Part shown: positions 1,666-13,612 of the stretch, one piece after another
Layout: every line of letters starts with the position of its first letter
How positions within the stretch are numbered: position 1 is the stretch's first letter
IMG/VR virus record: IMGVR_UViG_3300044591_000894
Location: 1-22,897 of that record
Direction: 5' to 3' (one strand)
Length of the DNA: 22,897 nt
DNA from: a virus
Notes under the pieces: generated by a model
Seen by the model: the letters and a program-made list of their open reading frames with translations, nothing else
What the model was told of the DNA's origin: nothing
Databases searched by the model: none
Program-made: the position numbers and the translations under genes

Positions 1666-2109
1666 TTATTCTAGAAAAGATCTTAACATCCAGTGGAATT
1701 TTCCGTGCGATTCCATTAAACTCTGGACTAAATTAGAAGTTGCATATTGCTTTTGTCTATCTGCTTCCTCTGAAATTTCTGCAAATACTTCTATAATTTT
1801 CTTATTGTCATCACGCAACTGTCTTACCATTTCATTTGCGTCAATTGATTGAGCACTATTTGATGCCTGTTCAATGGATGAAACTTCTACAACTCTTGAA
1901 AGAGTACTAACTGGTTTCATACCTAAGTATCTCATATGTTCGGTAAGAGTATCAATTTCTTCAAACATTGCTTCATATTGCTCACCAAAGAGTATATGAA
2001 GTTGTTGAAAATCAGGACCTACCACATCCCAATGGTAGATCCAAGTTTTTTGAAATAGAACAAAAAGTGATGCTTGAGCATCACTTAACTGTTTAAACAA
2101 CTTTTCCAT
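1666..2109 (-). CDS. Dps-like ferritin-family protein
   Basis: 147 residues, close to the usual Dps length of 150-170. The Dps signature is present: H26-W-D-V-V-G-P-D-F-Q-Q-L-H38, followed by F/Y residues and D53-xxx-E57 in EEIDTLTEHMRYLG. H26, H38, D53 and E57 match the four inter-subunit ferroxidase ligands of the family. Dps assembles into 12-subunit shells that oxidise and store iron, detoxify peroxide and in some cases coat DNA. The N-terminus is short and not lysine-rich, so DNA coating is not obvious. The gene has its own TATAAATA late promoter 20 bases upstream, just after the porin terminator, so it is probably made late. Family assignment is strong; whether the protein protects host, phage DNA or virion is inference. 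Confidence 0.88.
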   Translation of the reverse strand: MEKLFKQLSDAQASLFVLFQKTWIYHWDVVGPDFQQLHILFGEQYEAMFEEIDTLTEHMRYLGMKPVSTLSRVVEVSSIEQASNSAQSIDANEMVRQLRDDNKKIIEVFAEISEEADRQKQYATSNLVQSLMESHGKFHWMLRSFLE

Positions 2110-2165: not shown

Positions 2166-3650
2166 TCAGAACCTAAACTGGGTCTGAATTACACCACCAT
2201 AGTTAGAGGATGCATTCTTGAATCCCTGATTATTGGAAACATAGAAGATTGCAGGAGTGATGCTGATATTATCACTCACGCGGTAACGATAGAAGGTTTC
2301 CCACATCAGAGCATCCTTAGTGAGGGAAGCAGCATTACCAGGGGCACCGATAGCAAAACCAGCGGCATTACCCTTAGCAAATACATCTGCCCACTGGACA
2401 CCAGCAAACCAAGTCTCAGACTTAGTAGCAGCACGGGGAGTAGCAGGACCCTCTACAGTGTTCCAACCATACGCACCACTCAGAGAAGGAATAATACCAG
2501 ACTTCTTAGGTTGCCAATAAGCATTCACTGCGTAACCGTTAGAGGTTTGATTGGCAGCAAGAGTACCACCATTACCAGCAACACCGTTGAAGGTACGAAC
2601 ACGAGTGCCTTCAGTACCATAACGATAACCGAATGCAATACCATACTGAGGAGCACGATAACCGATCTGTGCCAGAGTGTTCAGAGCACCAGATTCATCA
2701 AATTCACCTTTGCTAGAATCAGAACCGTTTTGGGCAACATAGTTGATACCAGCAACGAAACCACCCTTACCTTTCTTGGTAGGTTGTGCCCACTGGGCAC
2801 CGAAACCAGAACCAGTTGCTTTGTTGTAGACACCAGGGGCACCAGCAACAGAGAAGAAGTCAAGAATGTCTGATTTATAAGCAGTAGGAACCCACGACAT
2901 CTCAGTGTTACGAACAAGAGCACCAGCAGTCAAAGTCAGACCTTTGGTAAGAGCAGGGAACTGATAGTACAGACGGTCAAGTTGCACTTGGTTTGCATAA
3001 GATTCTGCCTTATCCAGTTTGAACAGAGAAGAGGAAGAACCAAAGGGTTGACTGGAGAAATTACCAGAACGCAGACGAGTCTTCAGCAAATCCTTACCAG
3101 TAAAGGAAGTATCAAAGTTCAGACGAACATCATAGTTGAAAGCAGTGTTGCCAACATTGGTTCCATTAGCAAGACGAGCACCTTCTACACCACCGAGAAC
3201 GAAGGTTGCTTCACCACGCAGTTTAGATGTAGTGGAGAACTGAGTTGCTTGAAGTTGACCAACTTGTGCTTCCAGTTTATCGACACGACCACGAATAACT
3301 AGAAGTTCTTCGGAAAACTCTTTCGAAAGACGTTGGAGTTCATCAGTTACTTCGGTTACACGATCAAGGCAAGCATTCAGAAGTGCTGCTGCCTCATAAC
3401 GGGTCATTGCCTTACCACCACCATAAGTGCCGTTAGGATAACCAGCAACGCAACCATAACGCTCTACTAGGTTGCTGAGTGCCTGATATGCCCAATCAGA
3501 AGGTTGGACATCAGAAAATTGAGTGACGCTTGTTGCCTGCTCAGAGGAGTATTGATTGACTGCTGCAATATTAAGATCTGCGGCATTCGCAACAGCAGGA
3601 GCAATCATACCAAGGGCAACGGGTGCAAGCATCAGTTGTTTGATTTTCAT
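2166..3650 (-). CDS. Cyanobacterial-type SLH-domain outer-membrane porin (SomA/SomB, iron-uptake-porin-like)
   Basis: 494 residues. A Sec signal peptide with a cleavage motif AVANA|A lies near residue 23. An SLH domain follows (about 43-95: FSDVQPSDWAYQAL, then GCVAGYPNGTY and MTRYEAAALLN), then a coiled coil (about 97-137, VTDELQRLSKEFSEEL onward). The OprB-like beta-barrel runs from about 140 to the end and finishes in aromatic F494, the outer-membrane insertion signal. This is the full architecture of cyanobacterial major porins, where SLH binds peptidoglycan and the barrel conducts small solutes. The gene is clearly richer in G+C than its neighbours (32 of 60 bases at 2341-2400), which points to recent capture from a host. 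It has its own terminator and a host-like sigma70 promoter. Roles could be nutrient or iron entry, or altering the surface against competing phages; these are inference. Confidence 0.92.
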   Translation of the reverse strand: MKIKQLMLAPVALGMIAPAVANAADLNIAAVNQYSSEQATSVTQFSDVQPSDWAYQALSNLVERYGCVAGYPNGTYGGGKAMTRYEAAALLNACLDRVTEVTDELQRLSKEFSEELLVIRGRVDKLEAQVGQLQATQFSTTSKLRGEATFVLGGVEGARLANGTNVGNTAFNYDVRLNFDTSFTGKDLLKTRLRSGNFSSQPFGSSSSLFKLDKAESYANQVQLDRLYYQFPALTKGLTLTAGALVRNTEMSWVPTAYKSDILDFFSVAGAPGVYNKATGSGFGAQWAQPTKKGKGGFVAGINYVAQNGSDSSKGEFDESGALNTLAQIGYRAPQYGIAFGYRYGTEGTRVRTFNGVAGNGGTLAANQTSNGYAVNAYWQPKKSGIIPSLSGAYGWNTVEGPATPRAATKSETWFAGVQWADVFAKGNAAGFAIGAPGNAASLTKDALMWETFYRYRVSDNISITPAIFYVSNNQGFKNASSNYGGVIQTQFRF

Positions 3651-4628: not shown

Positions 4629-4823
4629 TCAAAAATCTATAAAATAACCATTAATATAATCAAGAGATAATACTTCAAGATTTTCTTTTTGAATTACCCA
4701 ATCACGGATTTCACTATAAACAGACTCTGCATCTTTTGTTCTTCCTTCTTCACACAAAAGATGCATACGATCAATATGACCGTCAATTGTATCATTGCAT
4801 ATTTTCTTGATGTGAAGTCCCAT
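4629..4823 (-). CDS. Small early-type protein, 64 aa, unknown
   Basis: Begins MGLHIKKICNDTIDGHIDRM, continues with a helical acidic middle (LCEEGRTKDAESVYSEIRDW) and ends LSLDYINGYFIDF. There is no membrane segment and I recognise no family. Expression signals are strong: a consensus sigma70 promoter at 4892-4864 and an AGGAAGGA ribosome site about 12 bases before the ATG. It is an isolated early-looking gene in a late region, facing a plus-strand homing nuclease. Small early genes of this type in T4-like phages often act on host targets, but that is only context. Confidence 0.65.
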   Translation of the reverse strand: MGLHIKKICNDTIDGHIDRMHLLCEEGRTKDAESVYSEIRDWVIQKENLEVLSLDYINGYFIDF

Positions 4824-4916: not shown

Positions 4917-4924
4917 CATAAATA
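4917..4924 (+). promoter_or_regulatory. Late-promoter-like octamer for the plus-strand nuclease
   Basis: CATAAATA on the plus strand, 26 bases before the ATG at 4950. One mismatch to the T4 late consensus. Confidence 0.45.
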
Positions 4925-4949
4925 ATATTAAAAGAAAGAAAATATTTTT

Positions 4950-5651
4950 ATGGAATGGAAATATAACGGAGAAGATTTTATTGAAGTTCCAAAAAATATG
5001 GAAGGTTTTGTTTATTTGATTACAAATTTAACTAATGAAAGAAAATATGTGGGGAAAAAACACTTTTGGACTAGACAAAAAGATAAAAAAACTGGACGCA
5101 AAAAAACAAAAGAAAGTGATTGGAAAAATTATTATGGTTCTTGTGATGAATTAAAAGAAGATATTAAAGACATAGGAAAAGAAAATTTTTTAAGAGAAAT
5201 TCTTTACTTATGTCCTCATAAAAAATCTATGTCTTATTTTGAAACTTACGAACAATTTAAAAGAGATGTATTGATGACTGATGAATATTATAATACAAAT
5301 ATTGAAGGAAGATTTTTTGTAAGTGAAAGAACTGGAATTTATGAAGTTGTTTTAAGAAATGACAAATATAGAGAAGATAAAAGAAAACTTATGACTGGTG
5401 ATAATAATCCAGCAAAAAGACCAGAGGTTAGACAAAAGTTAAGTGAAATGTTTTCTGGTGAAGGGAATCCTATGTATGGATCCAAATTGACAAAAGAACA
5501 TAAACAAAAACTTACTACATCAAGAAATATTATTCTAACGGATGGAAATAAAAATTGGGAAAGTATAGTATCTTATATGAAAGAAAATAAAATAGGATTC
5601 CAAACATACAAAAAAAGGTTACAAGAAGGTAATGTTTGGATAGTTGATTAA
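4950..5651 (+). CDS. GIY-YIG homing endonuclease with two NUMOD3 motifs
   Basis: 233 residues and the only convincing plus-strand gene in the window. An N-terminal GIY-YIG-type domain runs from about 18 to 125: GFVYLIT (19-25) and KYVG (32-35) correspond to the GIY and YIG strands, followed by SDWKNYYGS and NFLREI. Two NUMOD3-like DNA-contact repeats follow (about 150-169 beginning GDNNPAKRPEV, and about 170-189 beginning GEGNPMYGSKL), then a C-terminal helical DNA-binding tail. This is the layout of freestanding Seg-like homing nucleases of T4-like phages, which cut DNA of related phages and spread by recombination. The gene is very AT-rich (11 G/C in 60 bases at 4921-4980). It ends inside the locus where the minus-strand GIY-YIG remnant (5648-5758) breaks off, which suggests it invaded that gene. 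Confidence 0.88.
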   Translation: MEWKYNGEDFIEVPKNMEGFVYLITNLTNERKYVGKKHFWTRQKDKKTGRKKTKESDWKNYYGSCDELKEDIKDIGKENFLREILYLCPHKKSMSYFETYEQFKRDVLMTDEYYNTNIEGRFFVSERTGIYEVVLRNDKYREDKRKLMTGDNNPAKRPEVRQKLSEMFSGEGNPMYGSKLTKEHKQKLTTSRNIILTDGNKNWESIVSYMKENKIGFQTYKKRLQEGNVWIVD

Positions 5652-5758
5652 TAATAATACTTACTACAAGATATAAGATAAACAAAACCAAAACTATCTT
5701 GAATATCATTGCTATCAAAAATTTCCCCATTGTATCTCCAAGGGTTTTCATAACTCAT
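5648..5758 (-). pseudogene. Truncated GIY-YIG-family gene start (36 codons)
   Basis: From the ATG at 5758 the minus strand reads MSYENPWRYNGEIFDSNDIQ then DSFGFVYLIS before drifting into CSKYYY and a stop at 5650-5648. The first 29 residues match the start of the same broad family as the plus-strand nuclease: W-x-YNGE-x-F followed by GFVYLI is shared with its MEWKYNGEDF and GFVYLIT. The reading frame is lost where the plus-strand gene ends (the two stops overlap at 5648-5651). A perfect TATAAATA late promoter lies 25 bases upstream, as expected for a once-complete late gene. It might still be translated as a 36-residue peptide. An alternative hydrophobic frame from 5751 overlaps the nuclease and is less convincing. 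Confidence 0.75.
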
Positions 5759-5782: not shown

Positions 5783-5790
5783 TATTTATA
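5783..5790 (-). promoter_or_regulatory. T4-type late promoter (TATAAATA)
   Basis: A perfect octamer on the minus strand, 25 bases before the ATG of the truncated GIY-YIG gene and after the terminator at 5832-5858. Confidence 0.7.
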
Positions 5791-8693: not shown

Positions 8694-9155
8694 TTACATC
8701 TTCAGAAACCTACCATTAGAATCTCTTGGTAGTGGCTTTCTTTTTCTTTCCGCCCAAACTTTTTTCATAGATTCACGTTTTCTTTCAATTTCTTCTGGGG
8801 TTTGTTTCCCAGGTCTTCCTTTTCTATGTGCCGAATTGGAACACTTTTCCCTTATTTCAGGTGTTCTTTCATAAGGAGTATATAATGATTTATATTGTTT
8901 TGGTGGAGTATCTCCACCATCAGTTTTATTTTCTAATATTCCAGTCCCATTATTCAATCTTCCCCACTTTTCTATCAATTTAATTTCTTCATTTAAAGCA
9001 GTTTTTTCATCAACATCTTTTAAAGGAAAAATGACTCGTTCTTTGGGTGGAACTTCTACACTATGAGATTTTTGTTTCCACCTATTATCTTTCCCCTTAC
9101 CGACATAGTAAGGGGTTCCATCTTCTTTTAAATAAACATAAACATAATAATTCAT
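8694..9155 (-). CDS. GIY-YIG endonuclease downstream of nrdB
   Basis: 153 residues. The N-terminal GIY-YIG signature is YYVYVYLKEDGTPYYVGKG (3-21), with R25 as the expected catalytic arginine, an acidic helix (NEEIKLIEKWG) carrying the metal-binding glutamate, and an asparagine-glycine region (ENKTDGGDTPP). The C-terminal half is basic (SAHRKGRPGKQTPEEIERKR, then MKKVWAERKRK), a NUMOD-like DNA-binding tail. Its ATG overlaps the nrdB stop (ATGA), so it is co-translated with nrdB. This fits the known habit of homing nucleases to settle beside nrd genes in T-even phages. A homing role is likely but not shown; single-domain GIY-YIG nucleases can also have repair or exclusion roles. Confidence 0.82.
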   Translation of the reverse strand: MNYYVYVYLKEDGTPYYVGKGKDNRWKQKSHSVEVPPKERVIFPLKDVDEKTALNEEIKLIEKWGRLNNGTGILENKTDGGDTPPKQYKSLYTPYERTPEIREKCSNSAHRKGRPGKQTPEEIERKRESMKKVWAERKRKPLPRDSNGRFLKM

Positions 9156-10294
9156 AGTTTAAAACTAGAAAATTGATTTGAAGTCATATCTTGTTTAATT
9201 CCACCAACCAAATAGCTTTCTGCCTCCGATTCTTGAGGTGCTACTTGCAATCCTTTAGATTCAATCCAGTGAGAAGTCCAAGGAAGTGGGTTATTTTTTG
9301 CAGAAATATCATAAAGTGGTTTAATACCAATTGCTTTCATACGACGATTGGCAATCCACTCAACGTAACTCCAAAGAAGTTTATCATTCAGACCAATCAT
9401 TGAACCATCTTTAAACAAATATTCTGCCCACCTTTTCTCCTCATTCACACAATTGTCAAAAGCACTTCTTACCCATTCCTCTTCTTCTTTAGCAATTTGT
9501 TGCATTTCTGGATCATCTCCTTCACGCCACTTATTGAGGATGTTCTGAGTAATGACAAGGTGCTGATTTTCGTCTCGTGCGATGAGAGAGATAATTTTAG
9601 CGGATCCTTCCATAAGTTTGAGTTCACCAAACGCAAACGAGCAAGCGAAAGAGACATAGAATCTGATACCTTCGAGAATATTGACATTTGCAATTGCACG
9701 ATAGAGTTTTCTTTTTAATTCATATCTTTCATCCTTTGCAGTTCCAGCACCTTCTTGAGCGTGAATCCAAAGATTTGAGTTTCCATAAGATTGTGCCGAA
9801 TTAATAAAATCATCATAAGCACCAGTTACGGATGAAGCACGATCAAGAATTCTTTCATCAGTTAAAATAGAATCAAAAACTTCTGAGGGATCCGAATACA
9901 CATTCTTAATAATATATGTATAGGAACGACTATGAATCATTTCCATAAATTCCCAAACCGTCATACAAGCTTCCAATTCAGGAAGAGAACAATAAGGAAT
10001 AAATGCCATTCCAGGACCACGACCCTGAACTGAATCTAAAAGAATTTGATATTTTAGATTAGAAGTAAAGATATGTTTTTGTTCTGGACGAAGAGTTTGA
10101 TAATCTGCACGATCCTTTTGCAAAGAAACTTCTTCTGGTCTCCAGAAATACCCCAACTGTTGTTGAGTCAGTTTATCAAATACTGGATACTTATACGAAT
10201 CATATCTTTGAACTCCAAGAGGAGAACCAAAAAACATAGGTTGCTTTTTGGCATCTACCTCTTGAGTATTAAATACGGTCATTCCTTGAATCAT
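9152..10294 (-). CDS. nrdB: Ribonucleotide reductase class Ia small subunit
   Basis: NrdB carries the diiron-tyrosyl radical used by NrdA to reduce ribonucleotides, feeding dNTPs to phage replication. Numbered from the ATG at 10294 (MIQGMTVFNTQ), the ligands match E. coli NrdB: D87 in LLDSVQG, E118 and H121 in MEMIHSRSY, radical tyrosine Y125, E208 in NILEGIRFY, and E242 and H245 in RDENQH. The C-terminus SYLVGGIKQD to FSSFKL is the NrdA-docking tail. The frame opens earlier, at a GTG at 10336 overlapping nrdA, and family alignment would also allow Met at 10282; 10294 has a weak AGAAAG ribosome site. About 380 residues, normal for the family. It is co-transcribed with nrdA and coupled to the downstream nuclease. 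Confidence 0.95.
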   Translation of the reverse strand: MIQGMTVFNTQEVDAKKQPMFFGSPLGVQRYDSYKYPVFDKLTQQQLGYFWRPEEVSLQKDRADYQTLRPEQKHIFTSNLKYQILLDSVQGRGPGMAFIPYCSLPELEACMTVWEFMEMIHSRSYTYIIKNVYSDPSEVFDSILTDERILDRASSVTGAYDDFINSAQSYGNSNLWIHAQEGAGTAKDERYELKRKLYRAIANVNILEGIRFYVSFACSFAFGELKLMEGSAKIISLIARDENQHLVITQNILNKWREGDDPEMQQIAKEEEEWVRSAFDNCVNEEKRWAEYLFKDGSMIGLNDKLLWSYVEWIANRRMKAIGIKPLYDISAKNNPLPWTSHWIESKGLQVAPQESEAESYLVGGIKQDMTSNQFSSFKL

Positions 10295-10316: not shown

Positions 10317-12614
10317 CTAAATTTTACAGGATTCACAGTCTTCTTCCCCTCCTTCTAAAAGTTCTTTAACGAGATCATCAATACTAGTTTTTTCCTCCTT
10401 AACTTCATCTGTTTTATTATCATATGTATTTTGGTAATAAGAAGTCTTCCATCCAAGTTTATAAGTTGTAAGAAGATCTTGTGCCATCACTGAAACAGGA
10501 ACTTCATTATTTTCATAATTGCTTGGATTATAGGACCAGTTTCCAGAAATTGCTTGATCGAAGAATTTTTGCATAACTGCAACAATATTAATATACCCAC
10601 GATTGCTAGGCATATCCCAAAGCAACGTATAATTGTTTTTGAGATGCTGATACTGTGGAACAATTTGTTTAAGAGGACCTTTTTTGGATTTCTTAATTGA
10701 CAAGAATCCACGAGGAGGTTCGATTCCATTAGTTGCATTTGAAACTACAGAACTTGATTCTGAAGGCATTTGTGCCGTAAGAGTAGAATGCCTAAGACCA
10801 AACTCTTTGATTGATTGTCTTAATGATTCCCAATCATGCTGAAGAGCAACCGAAGAAACTTCATCCAAATCTTTCTTATAAGTATCGATTGGAAGAATAC
10901 CTTGGGAATACTTAGTGCGATTGAAATATTCACAAGCACCCTTTTCTTTAGCAACTTCATTTGATGCTTTGAGAAGGAAATATTGGAAAGATTCAGATAG
11001 TTGATGAACTGCATCCCAAGCTTCTTGAGTATCATAATTAAAACCAAGTTTAGCAAGATAATGTGCTAAACCAATATATCCAACACCTAAAGACCTACGT
11101 GCTTTAGTTCCAATCTCTGCAGCAACTACAGGATAGTTTTGATAATCAATCAATTCTTCCAAACCACGAACAGAAAGATCACAAAGATCTTCAAATTCAT
11201 CATCGGATTTCACTTTACCAACATTGACAGCAGAAAGAATACAAAGTGCAATTTCACCATCAGGATCATCAATATGTTGAAGTGGTACTGTAGGAAGTGT
11301 AATCTCTTGGCAAAGATTACTCATTTCAACCTTATCAATAAATGATGAGTGTGAATTGCAATGGTCGATATTCATAATGTAAATACGACCAGTTTCTGCT
11401 CTTTCTTTTAAGAGGTCCAAAAAGAGTTCTTGAGCTCCGATAGTCTTTCTAGGAATAGATTCATTTCGTTCTGCATCCACATAAAGATCGTCAAATCGAT
11501 CAGTCCCAAAAGCATCATAAAGACCAGGAACTGCATGTGGAGAGAAAAGGGAGATTTCTTCGTTCTTGATAAATCGTTCATAGAACAGTTTGGAGATTTG
11601 GATAGAGTAGTCTAATTTACGAACACGATTATCTTCGGTTCCTTTATTATTTTTTAGTACTAAGATATCTTCTATCTCTTGGTGCCAGATAGGAAAGTGG
11701 ACTGTAGCAGAACCACCTCTGATACCGTTTTGTGTGCAGCATCGCACAGTTGCTTCAAACTTTTTAAGGAAGGGGACCACACCTGTGTGTTGTACTTCTC
11801 CACCTCTGATTTTACTGTTGATGCCACGGATTCGACCTGCGTTGATACCGATGCCCGCCCTTTGTGCAACATATCTGCCGATAGCCATATCAGAACTAAA
11901 GATGCTATCGAGGGTGTCATCAACATCAACAAGAACACAGCTAGCAAATTGTCGAAGTGGAGTTCGCACTCCTGCCATGATAGGTGTGGGAATGTTGATT
12001 TTGTGCTTTGAGATTGCGTCGTAGTATCGTTTGACATAGGAAATTCTAGTTTCTTTTGGATATCTAGCAAAAATAGTAGCAGCAATCATCATATACATGA
12101 ATTGTGGAGTTTCATATACTTGACCGATACTACGATCCTGAACCAAATACTTATCAACTACTTGACGAAGACCAGCATAAGTAAAAAGATAATCACGATT
12201 GTGTTGAATATAATGACCAAGACGATTGAGTTCGTCTTCTGTATAGTTATTCAAGATTTCTGAGTCATAAACTCCACAATCAACACATTTTTTAATGTGC
12301 TCAACGAAATCAGGATGATCTTGCACTCTTCCATACAAAGATTTTCTCACAGAAAATAAAAGTAATCTTGCAGCAACAAATTGATAATTTGGATTATCTA
12401 AGTCAATCAAATCTGATGCCGAACGAATCAAAATTTCTTGAATTTCTGCTGTAGTAATTCCATCATAAAACTGAATTCCTGATTGCATTTCAACTTGAGA
12501 AGCAGAAACACCAGCAAGATCTCTACATGCTTCTTCAACCATCAAATGAAGTTTATTCAAATCAAGAGGTTCTTTTGAACCATTTCTTTTAATTACCTTT
12601 GTACCGTTGCTCAT
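10317..12614 (-). CDS. nrdA: Ribonucleotide reductase class Ia large subunit
   Basis: About 765 residues. An N-terminal ATP-cone region (KVIKRNGSKEPLDLNKLHLM onward to about residue 95) precedes the ten-stranded catalytic barrel. From the ATG at 12614, the redox cysteines are C226 (FASCVLVDVDD) and C458 (LCILSAVNVG). The thiyl-radical cysteine is C435 in MSNLCQEI, with N433 and E437. The radical-transfer tyrosine pair is in KTSYYQNTYD, and the C-terminal shuttle pair is C760-E-S-C763. With the Met four codons earlier (12626), C439 and C462 would match E. coli numbering, but the ATGA overlap with the primase stop favours 12614. Substrates are ribonucleoside diphosphates. The shuttle cysteines are CxxC, closer together than the E. 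coli pair. Confidence 0.95.
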   Translation of the reverse strand: MSNGTKVIKRNGSKEPLDLNKLHLMVEEACRDLAGVSASQVEMQSGIQFYDGITTAEIQEILIRSASDLIDLDNPNYQFVAARLLLFSVRKSLYGRVQDHPDFVEHIKKCVDCGVYDSEILNNYTEDELNRLGHYIQHNRDYLFTYAGLRQVVDKYLVQDRSIGQVYETPQFMYMMIAATIFARYPKETRISYVKRYYDAISKHKINIPTPIMAGVRTPLRQFASCVLVDVDDTLDSIFSSDMAIGRYVAQRAGIGINAGRIRGINSKIRGGEVQHTGVVPFLKKFEATVRCCTQNGIRGGSATVHFPIWHQEIEDILVLKNNKGTEDNRVRKLDYSIQISKLFYERFIKNEEISLFSPHAVPGLYDAFGTDRFDDLYVDAERNESIPRKTIGAQELFLDLLKERAETGRIYIMNIDHCNSHSSFIDKVEMSNLCQEITLPTVPLQHIDDPDGEIALCILSAVNVGKVKSDDEFEDLCDLSVRGLEELIDYQNYPVVAAEIGTKARRSLGVGYIGLAHYLAKLGFNYDTQEAWDAVHQLSESFQYFLLKASNEVAKEKGACEYFNRTKYSQGILPIDTYKKDLDEVSSVALQHDWESLRQSIKEFGLRHSTLTAQMPSESSSVVSNATNGIEPPRGFLSIKKSKKGPLKQIVPQYQHLKNNYTLLWDMPSNRGYINIVAVMQKFFDQAISGNWSYNPSNYENNEVPVSVMAQDLLTTYKLGWKTSYYQNTYDNKTDEVKEEKTSIDDLVKELLEGGEEDCESCKI

Positions 12615-13612
12615 ACTCGTTTCCATCCAATAAGTTTTGCTTTTGCTTCTAATCCCATATAAGTATTTTCCTTGATGATTTTTGAGGCATCAATTCCTGC
12701 AAGGATCATATCATTAATATCCTTTTCTTTCAAGTCATTCGGCCAAATAACAATTGGAAGTCGCAGGTCTATTGCATTTTCCATTCTATCAACAATTTGT
12801 CTATTTCGTTTTTCATTATCATAAACCATCACAAAGTCTGTTTCAAAGTTAGATAGAAAAAACATTTTGTCGATGTCCGCACCAACCATAGCAATTGAAT
12901 TATCTAAAAACATACTATCAATTGGTCCTTCAACAACATAAACAGTTTTATTATAATCTGGTTTATCTAAATTATAAATTTTTGGAGGTGTATCATTAAG
13001 AATAATTGTAATGTATTTTACCTTTGAGTTTTTATTTAAACTACGACCTTGAAATCCAAATATTTCTCCTTTATTGATTAGAGGAATAATAATTCGTGGT
13101 TCGTCTTGCTCTACTTTATCAAAGGTGTGTTTTTGAGTGTTCGTCCATTCTTTAAACTTTTCACAGAAATACAATTCACGCAGATAGTTGTTGGGTATTT
13201 TTCTATCTTCTAGATATTTTCTTGCGAAGTGTTCTTTATTTAGTTCTGCGATAGTAGGCAGGTCAAATGACTTTTTTGAAAAGTTTGGTTTCTCGAAATT
13301 AAATTCTGGTGTTTTTGTTTGAGACCTTTTGCCTGTGGTGCCTTCTTTGTATCTTTCCATTACATATTGATCGTAAAGGACAGTATCTAGATCTTTTAAG
13401 AAGTTTGTGAATGTTCTGGAAGTTCCACAATTATGACATTTAAAATTGTGGTCGTTCTTCAGTTGGTAAATATATCCTCTTGCTTTACTCTTTGTCCTTT
13501 GACTATCACCGCAGTAAGGACACCGAAAGTTATAAAGACCTTCCTTTTTCTTGGCAAACTTATCCAGTCGGGAAGATACCAACCCGATGTATTTGGAATC
13601 AACAAAACTCAT
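12611..13612 (-). CDS. 61: DNA primase, T4 gp61-like
   Basis: 333 residues. An N-terminal zinc-binding domain has C31-P-Y-C34-G-D-S and C59-H-N-C62-G, as in DnaG/gp61 zinc ribbons. A TOPRIM catalytic core follows: VYVVEGPIDSMFL with E228 as the metal-binding glutamate, and VMVYDNEKRN with D265 as part of the DxD-like acidic site. The protein makes RNA primers for lagging-strand synthesis with the gp41 helicase, whose gene lies about 7 kb upstream in this window. Length is close to T4 gp61 (342). It is the first gene of the primase-nrdA-nrdB block and is coupled to nrdA. A sigma70-like promoter lies 31 bases upstream, inside the end of the preceding gene. Confidence 0.93.
   Translation of the reverse strand: MSFVDSKYIGLVSSRLDKFAKKKEGLYNFRCPYCGDSQRTKSKARGYIYQLKNDHNFKCHNCGTSRTFTNFLKDLDTVLYDQYVMERYKEGTTGKRSQTKTPEFNFEKPNFSKKSFDLPTIAELNKEHFARKYLEDRKIPNNYLRELYFCEKFKEWTNTQKHTFDKVEQDEPRIIIPLINKGEIFGFQGRSLNKNSKVKYITIILNDTPPKIYNLDKPDYNKTVYVVEGPIDSMFLDNSIAMVGADIDKMFFLSNFETDFVMVYDNEKRNRQIVDRMENAIDLRLPIVIWPNDLKEKDINDMILAGIDASKIIKENTYMGLEAKAKLIGWKRV

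Follow-up and report, generated by a model that had tools for sequence, protein, structure and literature searches.

Freestanding GIY-YIG homing endonucleases, encoded by segA to segG, are described for phage T4, and one of them, SegE, is encoded at the inh/uvsW locus and cuts uvsW (PMC2988022). Freestanding homing genes that split a coding sequence are also known, examples being mobE, which interrupts nrdA in phage Aeh1, and mobA, which interrupts T4 gene 60 (PMC2988022). The locus analysed here belongs to this known class of events, of which it is an unusually clear case with an unusual target. It lies in a 22.9-kb IMG/VR fragment of a T4-like cyanophage (22,897 nt, hereafter the window), whose nearest isolate matches are Kyanoviridae. 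On the plus strand of the window, a homing-endonuclease-type gene of 233 amino acids is encoded at positions 4950-5651 (hereafter the plus gene). This SegE-type freestanding gene was very probably inserted, in antisense orientation, at about codon 41 of a resident gene of the family phrog_447, and the insertion destroyed the resident.

With the T4 seg genes the plus gene shares the Pfam family (PF19835, named after SegE), the freestanding organization without an intron, and the presence or absence at one locus. However, the seg genes are intergenic and cut a neighbour, whereas the plus gene splits, in antisense, a coding sequence of its own protein family. Like mobE and mobA, it is a freestanding homing endonuclease gene within a coding sequence that it splits. 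The split NrdA of Aeh1 still works, whereas the target is dead here and its middle is lost in most carriers. The resemblance to I-TevI comprises an N-terminal GIY-YIG domain, a C-terminal DNA-binding part of the NUMOD3/helix-turn-helix type and a structural match to both domains, but the plus gene is not intron-borne. In the open literature searched, no report was found in which a phage homing gene had invaded a gene from its own family in antisense orientation and at the catalytic motif, and this absence is no proof of novelty. What the locus provides is a natural allele series that documents the entry of a homing gene into a widespread phage gene and the erosion and replacement of the latter.

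Opposed GIY-YIG reading frames in the window

A first-pass annotation of the window had described the plus gene together with a minus-strand reading frame of 36 codons at 5758-5648, with stop codons overlapping at 5648-5651, and had assigned both to one broad nuclease family. The two reading frames and the overlap were confirmed, and both translations matched PF19835. The match of the plus gene was strong (E=1e-37, 129.5 bits, curated cut-off 25), and the minus-strand frame matched profile positions 1-26 with E=9.9e-5 and 23 bits, slightly below the curated cut-off of 25. The sequence motifs listed as common to both, WKYNGEDF or WRYNGEIF and GFVYLI, are present. Against phrog_447 the 36-amino acid translation aligned with positions 5-36 (E=9.4e-9), and at the DNA level the remnant was 88.6% identical to locus L179 across 105 nt. 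It comprises resident codons 1 to about 33-35 (5758-5651) and ends at most about 11 nt from the stop codon of the plus gene. The perfect late promoter proposed for this frame was found in place, as a T4-type match TATAAATA at 5783-5790 on the minus strand, 25 nt upstream of the remnant ATG. On its own, however, the match is weak, since the window holds five copies where 2.0 are expected, a count equalled in 5 of 100 shuffles. The leader of the plus gene (4917-4949, plus strand) contains the late-promoter-like CATAAATA, a putative promoter. In L041 the same leader forms the outer edge of the insert and carries a perfect TATAAATA.

The minus-strand gene had been interpreted as beheaded by its neighbour. 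The head remnant was correctly recognized, but a second remnant, the C terminus of the same gene, had been overlooked. It is located at 4893-4822 on the minus strand, 56 nt from the ATG of the plus gene, begins at about codon 117 (LDNGIPAYYNSNVMNRYFRKDYF) and shows 69-74% identity with phrog_447 from residue 117 onward. With this tail in place, the two ends of a broken phrog_447 enclose the plus gene. The identical arrangement was present in three further metagenome contigs (L007-L009), which rules out an assembly artefact. The resident 3' end is overlapped by the start codon of a 64-amino acid neighbour gene (p64, 4629-4823, minus strand), which adjoins the intact phrog_447 in L190. The window remnant belongs to phrog_447 by profile homology and by the intact member at the syntenic position in L190. 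It does not encode a complete catalytic domain, since codons ~36-116, including the YxG motif and the Glu-bearing helix, are gone.

In the plus gene, the SegE_GIY-YIG domain covers residues 3-118 (nt 4956-5303) and is followed by a NUMOD3 module at residues 158-188 (nt 5421-5513; E=2.5e-6, 27.7 bits, cut-off 20.4) and a helix-turn-helix-like C-terminal end. NUMOD3 provides the DNA-binding module beside the nuclease domain by which homing endonucleases are recognized. All 30 aligned homologues of the plus gene matched PF19835, and 25 of the 30 matched NUMOD3. Residues G19, F20, V21 and Y22, Y33 and G35, R42, R82, E98/E101 and N115 were invariant across the 30 sequences; by analogy, the G-F-V-Y, Y-x-G, Arg and Glu positions would have catalytic roles. 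The structural model matched the catalytic domain (1ln0, probability 0.99) and the DNA-binding domain (1i3j, probability 0.97) of I-TevI, with no more than nominal E values (0.02-0.17). A PDB sequence search with the plus-gene profile gave no match. The long form of the gene is under purifying selection, with a median pairwise dN/dS of 0.19 (0.09 for the GIY-YIG part, 0.36 for the tail), and was conserved whole, head and body together, across more than 50 loci. In one carrier (L057) the frame is interrupted by a stop after 56 codons, as is expected of a selfish gene, which can decay. In L035-L042 the inverted gene has an additional C-terminal extension of ~50 residues (281-285 amino acids).

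The resident gene family

phrog_447 is a SegE-type GIY-YIG gene of ~140 amino acids that almost all viruses of this type possess and that occurs in ~400 cyanophage records. Among the 412 records matching the 36-amino acid piece, 402 were from Synechococcus, Prochlorococcus or unnamed cyanophages. In many cyanophage records the gene, which corresponds to T4-like GC 213, is labelled "NAD synthetase." Pfam analysis of 19 members gave SegE_GIY-YIG alone in all 19, and the AlphaFold model resembles the catalytic domain of I-TevI (1mk0, probability 0.98, E 0.07). The label is without support and misleading; the protein is of the SegE GIY-YIG type. Relatives with ~32-37% identity, one per genome, were also found in Escherichia, Salmonella, Shigella, Felixounavirus and Erwinia phages, where they are often labelled NAD synthetase or homing endonuclease.

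phrog_447 and the plus gene are distantly related and share the SegE_GIY-YIG domain, but phrog_447 has no NUMOD tail and is usually located on the nrdA/nrdB strand. It was on this strand in the examined reference phages with nrdB nearby, and in the window this strand is the minus strand. In the phylogenetic tree a long branch, with 100% SH-aLRT support on either side, separated the clade of plus-type proteins from that of phrog_447.

Comparison of alleles and reconstruction of the insertion site

An intact minus-strand allele at the equivalent position of a relative, the check proposed in the first-pass annotation, was found in the syntenic locus L190. There, the gene order is p538 (the homologue of the 538-amino acid gene), intact phrog_447, p64, lysozyme, porin and dps, which is the order of the window without the plus gene. 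Close relatives (L037-L042) carry the plus gene at the position of phrog_447. The gene is present or absent at one site, which is uninterrupted in L190 and interrupted in L037-L042, the window and others. Resident remnants were found on both sides of the plus gene, on the minus strand, in L048, L049, L050, L060, L086, L172 and L173, with long fragments on both sides in L048, L060 and L173. The two-sided cases scored 59-150 bits at a search threshold of 28 bits, and the best score in the reversed-sequence control was 25.4. Because the halves of the resident flank the plus gene, the latter lies inside the resident in antisense orientation. The intact L190 allele and the split residents of L048, L060 and L173 support the earlier suggestion of a mobile nuclease that took the place of the body of a second nuclease. 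All long-form carriers are from metagenome contigs.

In the two-sided carriers the N-terminal remnant reached codon 41-43 at most, and the C-terminal remnant began at codon 60-64. Across all carriers, the former never extended beyond codon 43 and the coding part of the latter never began before codon 60. L037-L042 are an exception, since an extra 21 nt, AGAAAATACTTTTGGTCTTTT (codons 41-47), is retained there and adjoins the plus-gene leader on its outer side. In L060 and L173 the N-terminal side reads up to (A)TAGAA. Since L037-L042 resume at codon 41 and L060 and L173 read up to TAGAA, the meeting point of the two sides is codon 41. This codon encodes the R of Y-x-G-R-K-Y-F, directly after the YxG half of the GIY-YIG motif, and in the model the site falls in strand 37-43, the one that carries "YIG" in the GIY-YIG fold. 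Sequence by itself thereby allows the target site to be predicted to a few bases. Because no carrier has kept all the codons around the site, the exact insertion base had to be reconstructed from several lineages; no genome pair differing solely by the insert was found among the compared loci. In L048 the gap is filled by an insert of ~785 nt, consisting of the plus gene and ~80 nt outside its reading frame. The idea that the homing site is the one stretch of the target that is conserved best held only in part. Among 21-nt stretches, codons 38-44 ranked 7th of 424, and the most conserved stretch in 108 intact phrog_447 genes was codons 61-67.

The long form occupies one locus, as nrdB was located downstream, at 0.16-5.5 kb, in 33 of the 35 long-form loci for which the sequence extended far enough. 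In the phage collection no two family members shared a record, the 801 places being spread over 801 records, and the inverted type and phrog_447 occurred together in no fetched locus. Tail-less homologues of the plus gene (140-145 amino acids; S-SRM01, B23 and L071-L084) were found in the same region and in inverted orientation, where they adjoin p64 or lie between lysozyme and nrdB. No trace of phrog_447 was detected at these loci. The tail-less forms have retained the invariant positions of GIY-YIG, evolve under purifying selection (median dN/dS 0.20) and are basal in the tree. This basal position favours a gain of the tail by the long form, and the tree does not separate gain from loss. The B23 tblastn match, which ran to residue 215, had suggested a tail relic that was rejected on inspection, and no relic was found downstream of any tail-less form, B23 included.

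Predicted promoters and survival of the gene ends

The C-terminal remnant contains a predicted consensus sigma-70 promoter (TTGACA-17-TATAAT, 12 of 12 positions) at 4892-4864 on the minus strand, facing p64. A second 12/12 match was found upstream of the N-terminal remnant (5850-5822, minus strand), with the -35 element in the loop of a terminator-like hairpin (5858-5837). For the 3' promoter, at least 11 of 12 positions matched in 64.5% of 107 non-redundant intact phrog_447 genes, compared with 14% in synonymous resampling and 0.9% in other stretches of the same genes. The match was at one position in 83 of the 107. It is partly forced by the protein sequence, as the null for at least 10 of 12 positions is already 41%. 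In most intact phrog_447 genes (L092-L251), the near-perfect promoter lies within the conserved LDxGxPAYYNSN codons, so that the same bases would serve as coding sequence and promoter.

In the first 140 nt on that side, 18 of 31 distinct long-form carriers had a promoter match at 10 or more of the 12 positions; the shuffle mean was 1.0 and the maximum 6. In L044 the promoter was kept though the coding sequence around it had decayed to ~50% identity, and some carriers (L037-L042) have lost the 3' promoter. The predicted promoter plausibly accounts for the survival of the tail, and these results suggest that a hidden promoter in a coding sequence can limit the erosion of a dead gene.

The head remnants were 0.80-1.00 identical to the nearest intact allele of other phages, and the median among intact alleles was 0.95. 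Complete identity was reached by L014 with L227 and by L037 with L190. Many plus genes have diverged to ~80% DNA identity although their heads stay close to intact alleles. As the heads are as near to intact alleles as these are to each other, renewal by recombination suffices and no function of the 36-codon frame is needed. Such renewal would be expected from homing traffic.

Proposed mechanism and alternative explanations

The intact allele, both resident fragments, the junctions, the separate clades and the mutual exclusion were observed, and on this basis the following course of events is proposed. A phage with the plus gene would co-infect a cell with a phage carrying intact phrog_447. 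The enzyme would cut the intact allele near the YxG codons, at codon ~41, and double-strand-break repair would copy the plus gene into the cut allele and so spread it. The resident phrog_447 is lost, as the alleles show. Later deletions, which are seen in the carriers, removed the resident body up to the neighbouring promoter, presumably because that promoter was retained. In the window, later deletion removed the resident middle, codons ~36-116, as far as the edges of the insert. The persistence of both remnants would have separate causes. The 3' end may survive because it also serves the next genes as a promoter, and continual renewal by recombination with intact alleles may account for the fresh look of the 5' end.

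As an alternative, the annotation had considered that recombination between two copies of the GFVYLI/GGTTTTGTTTAT motif inverted the locus, flipping the body of one gene and leaving an orphan head on the other strand. The motif does form an inverted repeat, and the head in the window loses homology soon past it. This explanation was nevertheless rejected as extremely improbable: the head and body of the plus gene are conserved together over many loci and group separately from phrog_447, and in the less-eroded alleles the junction lies 12-13 codons past GFVYLI rather than at the motif itself. The position of the resident's own C-terminal half beyond the plus gene in L048, L060 and L173 already refutes an inversion. 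It is about equally improbable that the insert represents the reading frame of a spliced element, such as a group I intron, and leaves phrog_447 expressed. Proteins combining GIY-YIG and NUMOD3 are common in introns, I-TevI being an example. However, only ~80 nt of the insert in L048 lie outside the reading frame, which is antisense, codons ~36-116 are gone from the window, and no group I intron core was found with Rfam in L049 or the window. Somewhat less remote, though still very unlikely, is that the 36-codon frame was kept as a functional small gene, or because a small membrane protein is encoded across it in the +1 frame (5751-5530). The head is open in 37 carrier rows with 19 distinct sequences, and the +1 frame begins with ATG and is hydrophobic in many carriers. 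Against a conserved short gene, which the first-pass annotation had named as the outcome that would contradict its reading, the final codons vary between lineages, with stops at different points, and the closeness of the heads to the intact alleles of other phages needs only recombination. The hidden +1 gene was rejected, as in L037-L042 and in L190 the frame stops after 25 codons, and its peptide is not conserved in intact genes. A complete lack of intact homologues, the other contradicting outcome, is excluded by their abundance.

Homing insertion into phrog_447 may have a further consequence. Possibly, although we consider it rather unlikely, the inverted gene not only evicted phrog_447 but also does its job, with the tail-less 140-amino acid forms as the settled version. 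The strict mutual exclusion in 801 records is in line with such a takeover, as are the tail-less genes at the inverted locus with their retained invariant positions and purifying selection. Their basal position, which allows for a tail gained by the long form, and the lack of tail relics argue against it. Slightly more doubtful still is a scheme in which a selfish nuclease targets the motif DNA of a resident of its own family, evicts it and then replaces it on the opposite strand, losing its DNA-binding tail, so that a parasite would have become the successor of the gene that it attacked. All stages of this scheme would exist in living cyanophages, namely the intact, the split, the eroded to the promoter and the fully replaced.

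Other genes near the locus

Also encoded in the window are a porin of the OprB type that includes an S-layer homology domain (2166-3650, minus strand) and a Dps-like ferritin (1666-2109, minus strand), both of which are found in S-SRM01. A second GIY-YIG-like gene, phrog_15526, is located at 8694-9155 on the minus strand and overlaps the end of nrdB by 4 nt. Copies of it with 95% identity were found beside intact phrog_447 in L221 and L227. In L030, nrdA was matched in two pieces (9195-10259 and 11347-12663) ~1.1 kb apart, which suggests another insertion element in nrdA.
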